Positions 19,753 to 34,996 of a stretch of 36,114 nt of DNA are shown in pieces. Source of the stretch: Oscillospiraceae bacterium (GTDB taxonomy: Bacteria; Bacillota; Clostridia; Oscillospirales; Oscillospiraceae); NCBI GenBank assembly GCA_022795905.1, contig JAAWHO010000004.1:1-36114 (forward strand). Reading direction: 5' to 3'. Within the stretch, counting starts at the first letter, position 1. The number at the start of each line of letters is the position of its first letter. The notes beneath the pieces are model-generated. The model saw only the letters and a list, made by a program, of their open reading frames with translations. It was not told the origin of the DNA and made no database searches. The position numbers and the translations under genes are program-made.

Positions 19753-19791
19753 CCTTGTTAAAATGCCTTGTTAAAACGCCTTGCTAAAGGG
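19753..19791. repeat. Three tandem copies of a 13-bp unit
   Basis: CCTTGTTAAAATG / CCTTGTTAAAACG / CCTTGCTAAAGGG, head to tail; the third is the outer end of the R2 element. Confidence 0.8.
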
Positions 19792-19942
19792 AGGGATCGC
19801 CGGGCAAAGCCCGGTGGTGGCATTCGTCGCAGGGAACCTTCGTCTGCTGGAAATCTGACGCAATATGGGTCCTTGGGTGCTGGAATCCCCCCGCCACGCC
19901 TTCGGCGCGGCCCTCCCCCCTTTCACAAGGGGGGCGAGAGGG
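19779..19942. repeat. MITE-like inverted-unit repeat R2, copy A
   Basis: Left unit CCTTGCTAAAGGGAGGGATCGCCGGGCAAAGCCCGGTGGTGG..ATTCGTCGCAGGGAACC; right unit GGAATCCCCCCGCCACGCCTTCGGCGCGGCCCTCCCCCCTTTCACAAGGGGGGCGAGAGG; matches 32638-32803 across its whole length. Confidence 0.85.
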
Positions 19943-19974
19943 CGAATCTTGTCTGAACTGAATTTTGACACGCA

Positions 19975-27494: not shown

Positions 27495-28604
27495 TCAGCT
27501 GTTTTTCAGACGGACAGGCAGTACCATATAGAGAAAATTTTCTTCTCCCTCTACCGGGGTGATGATGCAGGGGGAAATACCGGTGTTCAGCTCCAGACGG
27601 ACCTTCTCCGCAGGAGCGTACTTGAGGGCATCCATGAGGTAGCGGTTGTTAAAGCCGATCTCCAGCCCGCCGCCGTCCCCCTCCAGGCGGCAGATGTCCT
27701 TGGCCTCGCCGCTGCCGGTCTTTGCGGAGAGGGAGACCTTGTCCAGATCAAAGACGCAGCGGACCGGGCTCTTCTGCTTGTCGGAGATGACCACGCTGAC
27801 GCGGTCGATGGAGGACATGAGGGCCTTGCTGTCCGCTGTCAGGACGATGGGGTTGGCGCGGGGGATGGCCGATTTGTAGTCCAGGAATTCTCCTTCAAGC
27901 CGGCGGCAGATGAGCTGGGTGGGGCCGACCTCGAAGAGAAGGTGGCGGCTGCCGAGCGTGATGACGGCGTTGTCCTCTGTGTCGCCGCAGATTTTCTCCA
28001 CCTCGTTGAGGGCGGAGCCGGGGGCGACAAAGCGGAAGGCGCCGGCAGATAAATTTTCCAGCTTCTCCTTCCGCAGAGCCAGGCGGAAGCCGTCAACGCT
28101 GACAACCGTTAAGGTCTGCTCCTCGATTTCAAAGAGGGAACCGGTGTGGACAGGGCGGGCCTCGTTGGTGGAGACGGCGAAGGAGGTCTCGCCGATCATT
28201 GTCTTGAGGAGCTGCTGTCTGATGGTGACGGAGTACTCGTCCTCTACCTCGGGGAGCTCCGGATAGTCGTCGGCGGGGATGGCCGTCATATCGTAGGAGG
28301 CGTCGCCGCAGGTCAGGGAGACGTTGAGACTGCTGTCGGAAACGAAGGTTACGACGTCATCCGGCATACGGCGGATCATGTCTCCAAAGAGGCGGGCGTT
28401 GAGAGCCAGACAGCCGCTTTCAGTGACGCTCGCTTCTACGGCGGTGCGGATGCCTGTCTGCATATTGTAGCCGGAGACGGTCAGTTGGCCGTCCGCCTGC
28501 AGAAGAAGGCCCTCCAGCGCCGGAATGGAGCTTTTGGCGGACACGGCCCGGGAGGCTGTGTTGATGGCGCTGAGCAGAAGCGCTTTCTCACAGGAGAATC
28601 GCAT
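27495..28604 (-). CDS. dnaN: DNA polymerase III subunit beta (sliding clamp)
   Basis: MRFSCEKALLLSAINTASRAVSAKSSIPALEGLLLQADGQLTVSGYNMQTGIRTAVEA. Confidence 0.98.
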   Translation of the reverse strand: MRFSCEKALLLSAINTASRAVSAKSSIPALEGLLLQADGQLTVSGYNMQTGIRTAVEASVTESGCLALNARLFGDMIRRMPDDVVTFVSDSSLNVSLTCGDASYDMTAIPADDYPELPEVEDEYSVTIRQQLLKTMIGETSFAVSTNEARPVHTGSLFEIEEQTLTVVSVDGFRLALRKEKLENLSAGAFRFVAPGSALNEVEKICGDTEDNAVITLGSRHLLFEVGPTQLICRRLEGEFLDYKSAIPRANPIVLTADSKALMSSIDRVSVVISDKQKSPVRCVFDLDKVSLSAKTGSGEAKDICRLEGDGGGLEIGFNNRYLMDALKYAPAEKVRLELNTGISPCIITPVEGEENFLYMVLPVRLKNS

Positions 28605-28676
28605 AGTGTTTTCTTCCTTTCAGAAATTTTTGTCAGAGCGGTATTTTCCCGGAATAGAAAACATAGAATATCTTTT

Positions 28677-28862
28677 TAGCAGCAGGGTCAGTAGGGAAAA
28701 TTTTTGTGGAAAAGGGGCTGAAACCGCTGGAAATAGGGAAAAATGACGTTCTCAGAGGCTGTGGATAAATGGGCGTGATTTCCGCCGGTTTCCACGGGGG
28801 CCTGGAGCCGAAAAATTTTCCACGGGTTTTCCCCTGTTGATATCAGTTTGTATTGTGGAAAA
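28677..28862. other. Candidate oriC: DnaA-box cluster with DnaA-trio-like run
   Basis: Perfect box TGTGGATAA (28760-28768); variants TGTGGAAAA (28705-28713, 28854-28862), GTTTCCACG (28788-28796), TTTTCCACG (28816-28824); triplets TAG CAG CAG GGT CAG TAG (28677-28694) beside an AT-rich stretch. Confidence 0.75.
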
Positions 28863-28895
28863 CGCTGGGGAAAATGTTGATTTACAGAGCCGCCG

Positions 28896-30209
28896 TTATC
28901 TGGCGGAGTTGATGTTGGTGGTGATGGCCTTGACCGTTTCGGCGAAGGCGGGGTTGGCGGTCATCTGTTTCTCTACCTTTTTGATGGAGTTGATGACTGT
29001 GGCGTGGTCCCGGCCGCCGAAATGCTGGCCAACGTCGTCCTGGGAGAGGCTGGTCATGCGGCGGATGAGATACATAGCCACCTGCCGCGCGTTGAGGCAG
29101 TCCCGGCTCCGGGAGGGGCCCCGGATCTGATCCTCCTCCAGGTGGTAGTAACGGCAGACCTCCTTGATAATGTGCTCCGGGGTAATGATGAACTCGTTGG
29201 ACTGGCTCATGTCCCGGATGGCCCGGTCGGCGGTGTCCTTGTTGACAGGCATTCCGTGGAGCTCCTTGAAGGCCTTGATTTTTTTGACGGTTCCCTCCAG
29301 CTGGCGGACGTTGGCGGTGATTTTGGCGGCGATATAGGAGGCGGTCTCGTCGTCGAGGAGGAAGCCCAGCTGAACAGCCTTGTTCTTGAGAATGGCGATG
29401 CGGGTTTCCAGGTCCGGCGGCGTCACGTCCGTCAGGAGTCCCCACTCGAAGCGGGTCCGCAGGCGGTCGTCCAGAAGGGTCATCTCGTGGGGAGGGCGGT
29501 CGGAGGTGAGGACGATCTGCTTCTTGGACTCATAGAGGGTGTTGAAGGTGTGGAAGAATTCGTTCTGCACCTGCTCCTTGCCGGCCAGAAACTGGACGTC
29601 GTCCACCAGGAGGAGATCCGCCTCCCGGTACTTGGTGCGAAACTCGCTGCCCCGGCCGGCGCGGATGAGTTCGATGAACTCGTTGATGAAGTCGTCGCCC
29701 TTGATGTAGACAAGGCGGGCGTTGGCCTCCCGGGAGCGGATGACGTGGGCGATGGCGTAGAGCAGGTGGGTTTTGCCAAGGCCGGAGTCCCCGTAGATGA
29801 GCAGAGGGTTGTAGTGCTGGCCGGGGGCGTCGGCCACCGCCTGGGCCGCGGCGTGGGCCAGGGTGTTGGAGGGACCGACAACAAAGGTTTCAAAGGTGAA
29901 CTCTCCGGACTCCATGAAGGAGGCGGGCCTCTTCTCCTCAGGGTGGCGGTAGAGGCGCAGGCCCTCGTCGTCGAGAAGACGGACGGTCATGTCGGAGGAA
30001 AAGATATCCTTCAGGCTGGCCTCGATGCTGGGGAGGAAGCGGTCCTGGATGTTGCTGCGCTTGAATTCGTTGGGGCAGTGGAGAACCAGGGTGTTGCCCT
30101 CCAGGGACACCACCGAGGTCTCGTCAAACCAGGTCTTGATGGTGGTTTCGGACAGGTCCTCCCGGAGCCGGGTGAGGATCATTGTCCAGATATCGGCGAC
30201 TGACTGCAT
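28896..30209 (-). CDS. dnaA: Chromosomal replication initiator DnaA
   Basis: YNPLLIYGDSGLGKTHLLYAIAHVI...LLLVDDVQFLAGKEQVQNEFFHTFNTLYESKKQIVLTSDRPP...GRDHATVINSIKKVE. Confidence 0.98.
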   Translation of the reverse strand: MQSVADIWTMILTRLREDLSETTIKTWFDETSVVSLEGNTLVLHCPNEFKRSNIQDRFLPSIEASLKDIFSSDMTVRLLDDEGLRLYRHPEEKRPASFMESGEFTFETFVVGPSNTLAHAAAQAVADAPGQHYNPLLIYGDSGLGKTHLLYAIAHVIRSREANARLVYIKGDDFINEFIELIRAGRGSEFRTKYREADLLLVDDVQFLAGKEQVQNEFFHTFNTLYESKKQIVLTSDRPPHEMTLLDDRLRTRFEWGLLTDVTPPDLETRIAILKNKAVQLGFLLDDETASYIAAKITANVRQLEGTVKKIKAFKELHGMPVNKDTADRAIRDMSQSNEFIITPEHIIKEVCRYYHLEEDQIRGPSRSRDCLNARQVAMYLIRRMTSLSQDDVGQHFGGRDHATVINSIKKVEKQMTANPAFAETVKAITTNINSAR

Positions 30210-30269
30210 AGAAGCTCTCCCTTTTTCTGTGTTGGCCCGCGGAGGGCACGGCGGTTCCTTAACTGGCCT

Positions 30270-30298
30270 ATTATATCAGAATTTGGGGGGGATTGCAA
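30270..30298 (-). promoter_or_regulatory. Predicted sigma-A promoter for dnaA
   Basis: Minus strand TTGCAA - 17 nt - TATAAT. Confidence 0.7.
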
Positions 30299-30414
30299 CT
30301 AATACTTATTCTAAATAAAAATGGAAATTGTGTTTTCTGCGGAAAGCGGCGGCGGGTTTTCAGCACTGCACTTCTTCATTTCTTCTTCATATTGAAAGAT
30401 TTTTGGTGGGGGAC

Positions 30415-30502
30415 GGTTCGCTGCGACGAATCCCCCCGCCACCGCTTCGCGGCGGCCCTCCCCCCTTTAGCAAGGGGGGCAAGAGGGCCGGCAGAGCCGG
30501 CC
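30415..30502. repeat. MITE-like repeat R2, copy B (single unit plus GGCCGGCAGAGCCGGCC hairpin)
   Basis: GGTTCGCTGCGACGAATCCCCCCGCCACCGCTTCGCGGCGGCCCTCCCCCCTTTAGCAAGGGGGGCAAGAGG, near-identical to the right unit of copy C; 17-mer GGCCGGCAGAGCCGGCC recurs at 32616-32632. Confidence 0.85.
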
Positions 30503-30573
30503 CCGGGCCAGGGGGGACGAGTGGCCGGCTCCGCTTAACAGGATTTTTGTCGTTTGCAGGACGGAATTCGCTC

Positions 30574-30601
30574 TTGACGGGGTGGCAGTTTTTGCTATAA
30601 T
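30574..30601 (+). promoter_or_regulatory. Predicted sigma-A promoter for the WG-repeat gene
   Basis: TTGACG - 16 nt - TATAAT. Confidence 0.75.
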
Positions 30602-30608
30602 GAAAGCC

Positions 30609-30650
30609 AAAGAGAGACGTCTCTCTTTTTCCCTTGGTGACTACCAAGGG
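30609..30650 (+). promoter_or_regulatory. 5' UTR with two tandem hairpins (attenuator-like)
   Basis: AAAGAGAGAC|GTCTCTCTTT followed by TT, then CCCTTGGT-GACT-ACCAAGGG. Confidence 0.6.
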
Positions 30651-30680
30651 AAAACCTTATTTAACGGAGGAGAAAACAGT

Positions 30681-32501
30681 ATGAGAAAGAAACTTCTATC
30701 CCTCGCGCTGGCCCTGGTGCTGTGCCTGGGCCTGACGGTCCCGGCGGCGGCTGCCACCATGACCGAAATTGTCTCGCCGGAGACCTATTACAGCTTCTGC
30801 GAATGGGCCGGGTATACGATTGAAGGCTTCCATGAGGGAATCACCTGGCGGGGACATAGCGGCGGGGCCGGCTACGGCGCTTTCGACAAAAACGGCAACA
30901 TCATCATCCCGCCCCACTCCTATGCGATCGAGAGTGATCCCACTGTCATGGACTTCTCTGACGGCGCCGCATGGGCGAGAAAAGACAACAGATGGCACGC
31001 TGTGGACAACACCGGCAAATATCTCTTTACCTTGGAGAAAAACGTGGTGCCGGAGGAGGATGGAAAGAGCGATTTCCACGAGGGCCTTGCCAGAGTTTAT
31101 GATAAAGAAACAAAAAAGTACGGCTATGTAGATAAAACCGGCAAGGTGGTCATTCCCTTCGAGCATGACTATCGGGCAGGGAATTTCTATGACGGCCTGG
31201 CTGTGACCTATGACGCTACCAACGCTTATTACGGCTACATGGACAAAACCGGCAAGGTAGTTATCCCCTGCCAGTACGCCAATGCAAGACACTTTGTCAA
31301 TGGCTTCGCAGTGGTGCAGCTGGGCAATCGCCAGACGGTCATTGACACAACGGGTAAAGATCTGCTTCCTCAGGACTACAGTTATAGGAGTAATAATTGG
31401 CCGGAGGATATTTCCTCGGAGGTTGTACCGATGTACCAAAAAGACAGCTTTCACTACGGTTACGCGTTTGTCAATAAGTCCGGGCAGATCGTCAGCGGCG
31501 GCTATGATTTTGTATGGGGCTTTGCCAACGGTATGGCTTTAGTGCAAAAGGACGATAAATATGGCTATGTAAACGAGGCAGGAGTATTGGTCATCCCTTG
31601 CCAGTATATATCTGTATCTGCCTTTGAATTCTGTGACGGCTATGCGTTGGTAAATTCCCATAGTATCATTGATAAAACGGGCAAGGTGACAGGAACCACC
31701 AACAATTCTGCCGTCAATGCCGGCAACGGCTGTTTCCGCATCTCGAGCAGTGAGTCCGGCAGGCGGCGGTACGGCTTCATCGACTACACAGGGCGGGAAA
31801 TCGTGTCCTGCAAGTACGCCGAGGTGAAGGATTTTTCCGGCGGCGTAGCGGCGGTGAAAACCTTTGACGACAAATGGGGCTTTGTGGACACCACCGGCGC
31901 GGAGGTCGTGCCCTGCACACTCACCGAGGTAGAATACACCGACGAGCCTGGAGTTTTTGTGGTAAAGAATTTTAACGGCGACGGTAAAATGAGCATTATA
32001 AAGTCCTCCGGCTGGACTGAGCCGTCCGTGTCCTCCGCTCCCGGCGCTCCCAGCACCCCCGCCCAGCCCTCCGGACCCAGCGCCAGCCCCACCAATTCCA
32101 AGGTACTGGTCAACGGCAAGGAAGTGGCCTTCGACGCCTATACTATCGACGGGAGCAACTACTTTAAGCTGAGAGATCTGGCCTATGTGCTCAGCGGCAC
32201 CGAGAAGCAGTTCGAGGTGGGCTGGGACAATGCCTCCAAAACCATCACGCTGACCTCCGGCCAGGGCTACACCGCCAACGGCAGCGAGATGGGCGCCAAG
32301 AGCGCCGGGAGCAAGGCCGCCGCCGTCTCCGCCTCCAAGCTGCTGATTGATGGGAAAGAGGTGGCTTTGACCGCTTACACCATCGACGGGAATAACTATT
32401 TTAAGCTGCGGGATATCGGGCAGGCGTTTGATTTCGGGATTGGCTGGGATAATGCCAGCAAGACGATTACTATTGACACCAGCGCGGGGTATACCGCCTG
32501 A
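30681..32501 (+). CDS. Secreted WG-repeat protein with two C-terminal stalk (copper amine oxidase N-terminal-like) domains
   Basis: Signal peptide MRKKLLSLALALVLCLGLTVPAAAA; repeated (K)YGYVDKTGKVVIP.. WG-type repeats; two copies of VNGKEVAFDAYTIDGSNYFKLRDLAYVL / IDGKEVALTAYTIDGNNYFKLRDIGQAF. Start moved from 30582 to ATG 30681 with GGAGG. Confidence 0.88.
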   Translation: MRKKLLSLALALVLCLGLTVPAAAATMTEIVSPETYYSFCEWAGYTIEGFHEGITWRGHSGGAGYGAFDKNGNIIIPPHSYAIESDPTVMDFSDGAAWARKDNRWHAVDNTGKYLFTLEKNVVPEEDGKSDFHEGLARVYDKETKKYGYVDKTGKVVIPFEHDYRAGNFYDGLAVTYDATNAYYGYMDKTGKVVIPCQYANARHFVNGFAVVQLGNRQTVIDTTGKDLLPQDYSYRSNNWPEDISSEVVPMYQKDSFHYGYAFVNKSGQIVSGGYDFVWGFANGMALVQKDDKYGYVNEAGVLVIPCQYISVSAFEFCDGYALVNSHSIIDKTGKVTGTTNNSAVNAGNGCFRISSSESGRRRYGFIDYTGREIVSCKYAEVKDFSGGVAAVKTFDDKWGFVDTTGAEVVPCTLTEVEYTDEPGVFVVKNFNGDGKMSIIKSSGWTEPSVSSAPGAPSTPAQPSGPSASPTNSKVLVNGKEVAFDAYTIDGSNYFKLRDLAYVLSGTEKQFEVGWDNASKTITLTSGQGYTANGSEMGAKSAGSKAAAVSASKLLIDGKEVALTAYTIDGNNYFKLRDIGQAFDFGIGWDNASKTITIDTSAGYTA

Positions 32502-32502
32502 G

Positions 32503-32539
32503 AAAAGGAGGAGCGCCCCAGAGGGCGCTCCTCCTTTTT
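32503..32539 (+). terminator. Intrinsic terminator of the WG-repeat gene
   Basis: AAAAGGAGGAGCGCCC-CAGA-GGGCGCTCCTCCTTTTT. Confidence 0.93.
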
Positions 32540-32615
32540 GCAGGATAGTATATTGCTCAAAGATAGATTCGCCCTCTCGCCTCCCCGTGGGCCGCCTTTG
32601 GCGGCTTAGGGCTGG

Positions 32616-32803
32616 GGCCGGCAGAGCCGGCCTAACGCCTTGCTAAAGGGAGGGGGACCGCCGGGCAAAGCCCGGTGGTGGTGGGATTCGTCGCAGGGAA
32701 CCTGCGCCTACCGAAAATCTGGAGCAATACGGGACCTTGGGTGCTGGAATCCCCCCGCCACCGCTTCGCGGCGGCCCTCCCCCCTTTAACAAGGGGGGCA
32801 AGA
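32616..32803. repeat. MITE-like inverted-unit repeat R2, copy C, with leading GGCCGGCAGAGCCGGCC hairpin
   Basis: CCTTGCTAAAGGGAGGGGGACCGCCGGGCAAAGCCCGGTGGTGG...ATTCGTCGCAGGGAACC ... ACCTTGGGTGCTGGAATCCCCCCGCCACCGCTTCGCGGCGGCCCTCCCCCCTTTAACAAGGGGGGCAAGA, collinear with copy A. Confidence 0.85.
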
Positions 32804-32902
32804 AGATTGATCTGCCCTGTAGAAATGCTCCGGTCCGGGGGCCGTAGGCCACAGGATGATTGGATAATCTATCGAAATTGCCGGTAAAAGAAGAATTTTA
32901 TG

Positions 32903-32931
32903 TTGACACCTTCCAGAAATTTATGTATAAT
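32903..32931 (+). promoter_or_regulatory. Predicted sigma-A promoter for rpmH-rnpA-yidD-yidC-jag
   Basis: TTGACA - 17 nt - TATAAT, both hexamers consensus. Confidence 0.92.
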
Positions 32932-33059
32932 GAGTTTCACCTGTCAAAAGACAGAATTTTTCTTGTCAACTGCGGGGCGGCATCTGAACGGACGCCGCCC
33001 GCCGTCGAGTAGTACGGCCCCTCGCCGTACAGCAGATTCTGAACAGGAGGTGTATGCAA

Positions 33060-33194
33060 ATGTTCCGTACCTATCAGCCCAAGAAGCGCCAGCGCTCCAA
33101 GGAGCACGGCTTCCGCAAGAGAATGCGGACCGCCAACGGCCGCAAGGTGCTCGCCCGCCGCCGGGCCAAGGGCCGCGCTCGCCTGACCCACTGA
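33060..33194 (+). CDS. rpmH: 50S ribosomal protein L34
   Basis: [44 protein letters not shown] (44 aa); AGGAGG 9 nt before ATG 33060. Below the ORF-track size cut-off. Confidence 0.98.
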
Positions 33195-33294
33195 GTAAAG
33201 CGGAGCTTGCATCGCGAATAGATGGATCACGGGGACGGTCAGGGCGTTTTCCTGCCGTCCCTTCGCCGTTTTCTTGTCCCCCGGAGGTGAGAGC

Positions 33295-33633
33295 GTGAAA
33301 AACACCATCAAGGAAAACAGAGAGTTCAAGCGGATGTACGCCAAGGCCAAATCCGCCGTTACCCCCTGCATGGTGGTCTACTGCCGCCGCAACCGCCTGG
33401 GGAGGAACCGCCTGGGCGTCACCGTCAGCACCAAGCTGGGGGGCGCCGTGGTCCGCAACCGGGCCAGAAGGCGGCTCCGGGAGGTCTTCCGCCTGGCGCA
33501 GCCGGGGATGAAGCAGGGCTGGGATATGATCCTGGTCGCCCGGGCACGGGCGGTGGACGGGCCCTGGAAGAAGCTCACGGCTGCCTTTGACCGGGCCTGC
33601 CGGGAGCTGGGCGTGCTGGAGGAACAGGGATGA
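33295..33633 (+). CDS. rnpA: Ribonuclease P protein component
   Basis: [18 protein letters not shown]...[31 protein letters not shown] start with GGAGG. Confidence 0.95.
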
Positions 33634-33842
33634 AAGGACTTCTGATCGGATTTATCCGCTTCTACCAGAGAAATATCTCCCCGGGACTGCCGCCCCGGTG
33701 CCGCTTTATCCCCACCTGCTCCCAGTATGCCCTGGAGGCGGTGGAGAGGTACGGCGCGGTGAAGGGCGGCTGGCTGGCCCTGAGGCGGTTTTTGCGATGC
33801 CACCCCTTCTATAAGGGGCCCCTTTACGATCCGGTCCCCTGA
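33630..33842 (+). CDS. yidD: Membrane protein insertion efficiency factor YidD
   Basis: [57 protein letters not shown] overlap with rnpA. Confidence 0.96.
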
Positions 33843-33886
33843 GGGGCCGGGAACCCATCGACTTTTCGATCGGAGGAAAAACAGCA

Positions 33887-34996
33887 ATGTTTGGTGCCTT
33901 TGGCAAAATCATCAGCCTGCCCTTCGCGGCGGTGATGCGCTTGATGTACAGCATCACAGGGTCCTACGGGCTGTCCCTGATTCTCTTCAGCCTGGTGGTC
34001 ACTCTGATTATGGTGCCCTTCCAGATGAAGTCCAAGCGCAGCATGGTCCGTATGGGCAAGCTGTCCAACAGACAGGCGGAGCTGCAGAAGCAGTACGCCA
34101 ACAACCAGCAGAAGTACCAGGAGGAGCTGGCCAGGCTCTACCAGGAGGAGGGCATCAACCCCATGGGCGGGTGCCTGTGGTCCTTTATCCCCATGTTTAT
34201 CATCGTCCCCCTGTACTCCATTATCCGCCAGCCCATTGTCTACTTTATGGGCATCAGCGAGACCGCCTGCGGCGCGCTGCGGGAGGCCGCCGAGAGTCTG
34301 GGGTACGTGGCCGAGACGCTCTCCAACGGGGCCTATGGCGCCTATGAGCAGGTGGACCTGGCAAACTTTATCTCCAACAACTGGACAAACTACAGCTGGG
34401 CCGATATTGAGGGCGTGGGAGACAAGCTGCTCCGGATGCACTTCAGCTTTCTGGACGTGGATTTGAGCCTCCAGCCCCAGGTGGCTATCAAGAGCTTTGC
34501 CCCTGAGTGGGCGATGATCGGACTTATCCTGATCCCGGTGCTCGCCGCCGCTATGAACTATGTGCAGACCATTATCATCAGCAAGTCCAACGGCCAGTCC
34601 GAGGAGCAGCAGAAGAGTATGCGGATGGTGAATATCATGATGCCGCTGATGAGCCTCTGGTTCTGCTTCGTCATGCCCGCCGCCCTGGGCCTCTACTGGA
34701 TTGCCAACAGCGTGTGGGGGATGCTCCGGGAGTACACCCTGGGCAGGTTTATTACCAAGAAGATCGACGCCGAGGAGGAGGAGCGGGCCGCCAAGCGGGA
34801 GGCCGCCCGGAAGCTGCGCATGGAGGAGGCCAAGAAAAAGGCCCAGGAGCAGCGGGAAACCGAGGCGAAAAAACCCAGAAAGATCCAGCAGCCTAAATCC
34901 AGCGGACCGGCCACCACGGAGGCCGGCCGGGTGGACAACCGCCCCTACGCCAGAGGACGCAGCTACAGAGCAGACCGATATGATACGGAGGAGTAA
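33887..34996 (+). CDS. yidC: YidC/Oxa1 family membrane protein insertase
   Basis: SYGLSLILFSLVVTLIMVPFQMKSKRSMVRM...GGCLWSFIPMFIIVPLYSIIRQPI...MRMVNIMMPLMSLWFCFVMPAALGLYWIANSVWGMLREY. Confidence 0.95.
   Translation: MFGAFGKIISLPFAAVMRLMYSITGSYGLSLILFSLVVTLIMVPFQMKSKRSMVRMGKLSNRQAELQKQYANNQQKYQEELARLYQEEGINPMGGCLWSFIPMFIIVPLYSIIRQPIVYFMGISETACGALREAAESLGYVAETLSNGAYGAYEQVDLANFISNNWTNYSWADIEGVGDKLLRMHFSFLDVDLSLQPQVAIKSFAPEWAMIGLILIPVLAAAMNYVQTIIISKSNGQSEEQQKSMRMVNIMMPLMSLWFCFVMPAALGLYWIANSVWGMLREYTLGRFITKKIDAEEEERAAKREAARKLRMEEAKKKAQEQRETEAKKPRKIQQPKSSGPATTEAGRVDNRPYARGRSYRADRYDTEE

Follow-up and report, generated by a model that had tools for sequence, protein, structure and literature searches.

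Bacteria are known to gain or replace genes when homologous recombination runs through the core genes on either side, and they also carry MITEs or other interspersed palindromic repeats (PMC10969869), such as the REP families (PMC3733652), which are short, non-coding elements. Hairpins near the 5′ end stabilise bacterial mRNA (PMC3997798), and Pfam describes both the WG beta repeat (WG_beta_rep, PF14903) and the stalk/copper amine oxidase N-terminal domain (PF07833). Here we describe a locus that resembles each of these systems in part. It lies in a window of 36,114 nt, by which we mean the whole stretch of DNA that was analysed, from contig C88 of G000, an Oscillospiraceae MAG that is 71% complete. 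In this window, a gene for a secreted WG-repeat/stalk protein stands between dnaA and rpmH.

The interval between dnaA and rpmH

To the left of the gene lies dnaA (28896-30209, minus strand; Pfam Bac_DnaA, 1.5e-69), and its right-hand neighbours are rpmH (33060-33194; L34), rnpA and yidC, all of them plus-strand genes. The first feature in the interval is a repeat segment, R2 copy B (30397-30520, plus strand), which consists of a single arm. It is followed on the plus strand by the near-consensus promoter of the WG gene, TTGACG-16-TATAAT (30574-30601), which has a form common to the paralogue genes, by two adjacent mRNA-leader hairpins (30610-30653), by the coding sequence of 606 aa (30681-32501) and by an intrinsic terminator, GGAGGAGCGCCC..GGGCGCTCCTCCTTTTT (32503-32539), with a z of -6.6. 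R2 copy C (about 32567-32812) comes next as an inverted arm pair, with arms at 32601-32730 on the minus strand and 32747-32803 on the plus strand and with degenerate terminal inverted repeats (AGATTCGCCCTCTCGCC), and is followed by the rpmH promoter, TTGACA-17-TATAAT (32903-32931, plus strand). The 17-mer GGCCGGCAGAGCCGGCC is present in both copies, as a hairpin at 30486-30502 in copy B and at 32616-32632 in copy C. A further inverted arm pair, R2 copy A (19775-19943), is distant from the cassette and is absent at the matching place in the sister species G002. An earlier note on this DNA had listed the promoter, the hairpin leader, the signal-peptide WG/stalk protein, the terminator, R2 copies B and C and the 17-mers, and we found all of these parts where it had put them.

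We compared this interval across 24 congeners. In the nine of the 24 that were readable in this respect, dnaA and rpmH are separated by 344-542 bp that hold no WG gene; these nine include G005, whose empty site keeps the TTGACA...TATAAT of the rpmH promoter. Another of the 24 holds 920 bp of repeat-like sequence in the interval, and in several dnaA stands at the end of a contig or away from rpmH. The only congener with a WG gene in the interval is G002 (contig JAAWUC010000002.1). The claim that normally just a short gap divides rpmH from dnaA is thus borne out, and the WG gene, with a promoter and a terminator of its own, is an accessory insertion at a site that is empty in the nine readable congeners.

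Several congeners have a dnaA without rpmH within 4-9 kb, and in G007 (C39) ORFs that by eye resemble GPR protease and ClpC lie upstream of dnaA instead. DnaA boxes, one perfect and two with one mismatch, sit in the dnaA-dnaN gap, and none occurs in the dnaA-rpmH gap outside the coding sequence, so the insertion of the WG gene does not obviously split oriC. An Rfam search over 28000-34500 returned nothing credible, and its four sub-threshold matches (E 0.045-0.79) were taken as chance.

A tract shared with a sister species

The WG gene of G002 occupies the same site as that of the window, shares promoter and leader with it, and shows 98.5% DNA identity over 1,987 bases (30523-32507). Aligned with the window, the G002 site lacks both R2 segments, and 3′ of the gene a different palindrome with a T-run stands in place of the window's terminator segment. 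The rpmH gene is identical in the species compared, and the rpmH flank shows 100% identity between the window and G002, against about 85% outside the tract described below. The closest relative of G002 is G005. Outside the tract, G002 is about 95-97% identical to G005 and about 85% identical to the window; inside the tract, it is 98-100% identical to the window and 75-90% identical to G005.

Diagnostic sites place the left breakpoint at 30084-30096 and the right one between 33023 and 33264. On the left, the ratio of window-like to G005-like sites in G002 is 34 : 8 from 30120 on and 23 : 189 earlier, and on the right it is 29 : 1 before 33262 and 42 : 469 after. Together with the alignment, these sites give a minimum shared tract of 30096-33023. 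The 5′ end of dnaA (up to 30096) forms the left arm of the recombination tract, and rpmH forms its right arm. Because the nearest relative of this roughly 3 kb tract switches sharply at both ends, each in shared core DNA, we attribute the tract to homologous recombination through dnaA and rpmH. On the simplest reading of the sequences, G002 received the ~3 kb tract, anchored in dnaA and rpmH, from a relative of the window species; this is the one transfer seen, among genomes that are all draft MAGs.

Two other accounts of the tract have to be weighed against this reading. Without any biological transfer, a chimeric assembly of either the G002 or the G000 MAG could also join sequences in this way, since both MAGs are fragmented and an assembler could switch at rpmH, which does not differ across species. 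However, the left switch falls within an 11-base interval, in which a k-mer jump would find little common sequence, and other islands of 96-99% identity occur. Furthermore, the G002 tract is not the window's own DNA, because it departs from the window version at about 27 positions, carries another palindrome on its 3′ side and lacks R2, and we consider a chimera unlikely. The WG gene might instead have been present in the common ancestor and lost by G005 and the other species, an account that fits the empty sites, which loss always leaves. Yet an empty interval is what the genus shows most often, and the gene and its flanks are far more alike in G000 and G002 than the 82-86% background, so that a recent exchange would be needed even if the gene were ancestral. 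We regard ancestral presence followed by loss as highly improbable.

The R2 repeats

The R2 core is not a chance motif, since it has three matches in the window and none in 100 shuffles. At the scale of the genome, which was covered by searches and fetched stretches, a 101-base R2 arm has 61 matches in G000, most of which form inverted pairs, in one arrangement or the other. The ends of R2 carry terminal repeats like AGATTCGCCCTCTCGCC, and the internal stem varies freely in sequence; one stem differs between copies in both sequence and length, yet stays self-complementary. The distribution of R2 among the 60 relatives searched is patchy, with 46 core matches in G000, 32 in G002 and none in G005; the core is common in G041, which belongs to another family, and R2 is nearly absent otherwise. 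In a citrate-lyase-like operon, about 400 bp with R2 separate two genes in G000 and G002, and 10 bp separate them in G005. R2 has several properties of a MITE, namely ends like AGATTCGCCCTCTCGCC, inverted arms, a length of about 150-300 bp, non-coding sequence, multiple copies and, as in this operon, insertion polymorphism at matching sites. No clear target-site duplication was read at R2. A search for the Y1 (RAYT) transposase, Y1_Tnp, found none in G000, G002 or G005 (genomes 70-89% complete), which speaks against a REP/RAYT origin of R2.

The recognised neighbours of R2 are core or metabolic genes, among them those for alanyl-tRNA synthetase, aspartate kinase, isocitrate dehydrogenase, Der, IF-2, acyl-CoA synthetases, a P-type ATPase and a response regulator, drawn from ten scanned neighbour genes that were chosen as recognisable and so are not an unbiased sample. 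Neither at the citrate-lyase-like operon nor at copy A is the presence or absence of R2 linked to a cargo gene. In other fetched stretches, G000 and G002 form a mosaic of 82-86% background and 96-99% islands (e.g., G000:C152 100-2738, in stretch numbering). About ten R2 sites are common to the two genomes, with flanks that are 91-99% identical and mostly above 94%, and R2 may travel with recombined flanks.

The earlier note had likened the unit to a repeat-flanked cargo. There are indeed R2 copies on both sides, with the same 17-mer in arms that face opposite ways, and the gene is absent from most relatives, which is what we would expect if it had been brought in between two R2 copies that G002 either lost or never copied. 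The bracketing does not amount to matching ends of one unit, however, because copy B is a single arm and copy C is an inverted arm pair. In addition, the gene and both repeats are not gained or lost together, as the gene is present at the same site in G002 without R2; this absence is specific to the site because G002 carries R2 elsewhere. The 2.2 kb that separate copies B and C are also unremarkable: about 36 elements spread over 1.73 Mb should by chance alone give 1.6 pairs that lie no more than 2.25 kb apart, with P(>=1) of 0.81. No further cargo between close R2 pairs came to light, as the copies found include no closer pair, the nearest others being about 4.5 and 6.2 kb apart. Together with the placement of R2 beside many core genes and the lack of a Y1 transposase in the three genomes searched, these results make an R2-bounded mobile cassette very unlikely. 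They largely agree with a random placement of R2 that has no association with accessory genes, and the idea of R2-flanked cargo is not upheld.

Taken together, the cassette is apparently accessory and mobile via core-gene recombination, with R2 as a bystander. In the order of events that we infer, the window's lineage would first have acquired an accessory surface-protein gene by insertion between the divergent promoters of dnaA and rpmH, and the gene would later have been copied into G002 by homologous recombination anchored in those two genes. R2, as an independent interspersed palindromic repeat, would most likely have landed on both sides afterwards, although its polarity at this site could be either gain in G000 or loss in G002, so that R2 could also have come first and then have been lost in G002. 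We consider it probable that the explanation holds as a whole, with insertion, transfer to G002, independent R2, a modular surface protein and a hairpin leader. This explanation is significant because an accessory surface gene would have crossed species by ordinary recombination via a pair of essential genes next to the origin of replication, with mapped breakpoints, and because transfer by recombination is set apart from bystander repeats.

The surface protein and its leader

Pfam recognises six WG_beta_rep stretches in the 606-aa protein (E 1.2e-55, 185.5 bits against a cut-off of 25.6) and one PF07833 (Cu_amine_oxidN1/stalk) match over a duplicated C-terminal pair (1.9e-7, 31.4 bits against a cut-off of 24.2), and a signal peptide, MRKKLLSLALALVLCLGLTVPAAAA, was recognised by eye at the N-terminus. 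The protein thus combines WG repeats with the stalk domains of a secreted protein, which confirms its description as a signal-peptide protein with WG repeats and two stalk domains. NCBIfam and a sequence search of the PDB gave no match for the protein, and the literature on WG-repeat or stalk proteins yielded nothing useful. An AlphaFold model has a pLDDT of 61, with confident parts only in the WG region and values below 50 in the stalk part. The top Foldseek matches of this pLDDT-61 model in the PDB are mostly propellers (BamB, YxaL, sortilin), at a low query TM of about 0.1-0.4, and a viral structure library gave loose repeat-protein matches only. The protein is likely a wall-anchored, propeller-like protein that would bind a ligand.

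The stalk pair recurs, 88-92% identical, behind RCC1 repeats in G000:C81 and behind LRR_5 repeats in G005:C19, for which a matching 5′ part lies on C200. It also follows the WG repeats of a second protein, in G002:C11, which is cut at the contig end. An M23-adjacent locus encodes an RCC1-stalk protein in G000:C81 and a WG-stalk protein, cut at the contig end, in G005:C291. Because the DNA that follows is common to both, at 91% over 2.7 kb, these matching loci hold different ectodomains, an apparent swap of RCC1 and WG. In the congener G019, the WG protein has SLH domains at its end where the stalk pair would otherwise stand. This points to wall attachment as the task of the stalk pair too, and the pair probably serves as the protein's wall anchor. 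The protein belongs to a modular family, in which a conserved promoter, a two-hairpin leader and a signal peptide precede an exchangeable ectodomain (WG, RCC1 or LRR) and a near-identical stalk pair.

The two hairpins stand right after the promoter in the leaders of the window, G002:C118, G002:C11 and G005:C200, and the three of these four leaders that were folded have a z of -3.6 to -4.4. In a small set of four sequences in two groups, the leader pairs are 100% kept in all four, with 6 of the 18 pairs changed on both sides, which indicates that the structure is kept with compensatory changes; slid controls showed no such covariation. A covariance model built from the four leaders recovered this form upstream of a distant stalk-protein gene in each of G000, G002 and G005 (E 5e-4 to 5e-3), with weaker matches before genes for a 5′-nucleotidase-like and an SLH-type protein, both named by eye. 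The leader has no significant match in Rfam. The second hairpin (window 30630-30649) has the loop GACT in the window, and in G002 the loop is the reverse complement, AGTC, which amounts to a clean inversion of the loop. The hairpins most likely stabilise the 5′ end of the mRNA or act as a regulatory leader, and we favour stabilisation as their role. A bolder proposal, which we hold to be possible but doubtful, is that these Oscillospiraceae maintain a repertoire of surface proteins in which the ectodomain (WG, RCC1 or LRR) can be exchanged, while the block of promoter, two-hairpin leader and signal peptide in front of it and the stalk pair behind it stay fixed, that whole genes and ectodomains recombine within and between species, including at the origin-proximal dnaA-rpmH slot, and that the leader is a new co-regulating structured RNA. 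If ectodomain swapping and the common leader hold, the family would provide a case in which surface variation among uncultured gut bacteria can be put to the test.

Compared with known systems, the locus shares with gene gain through core genes the sharp mosaic boundaries and the accessory gene between them, but differs in its site, the interval beside the replication-initiator gene. R2 resembles MITEs and REP families (PMC10969869; PMC3733652) as a short, non-coding, inverted-arm, multi-copy and insertion-polymorphic repeat, and differs from them in its very variable internal stem, its two arm arrangements and the lack of an assigned transposase. The six repeats of the protein are like those of known WG_beta_rep proteins (PF14903), but here they are joined to a duplicated stalk pair, or to SLH in G019; the C-terminal pair matches PF07833 and is re-used under WG, RCC1 and LRR ectodomains. 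Like the 5′-terminal mRNA-stabilising stem-loops described previously (PMC3997798), the leader places a hairpin a few bases past the promoter of a secreted-protein gene; unlike them, it has two adjacent hairpins, in a structure conserved across paralogues.
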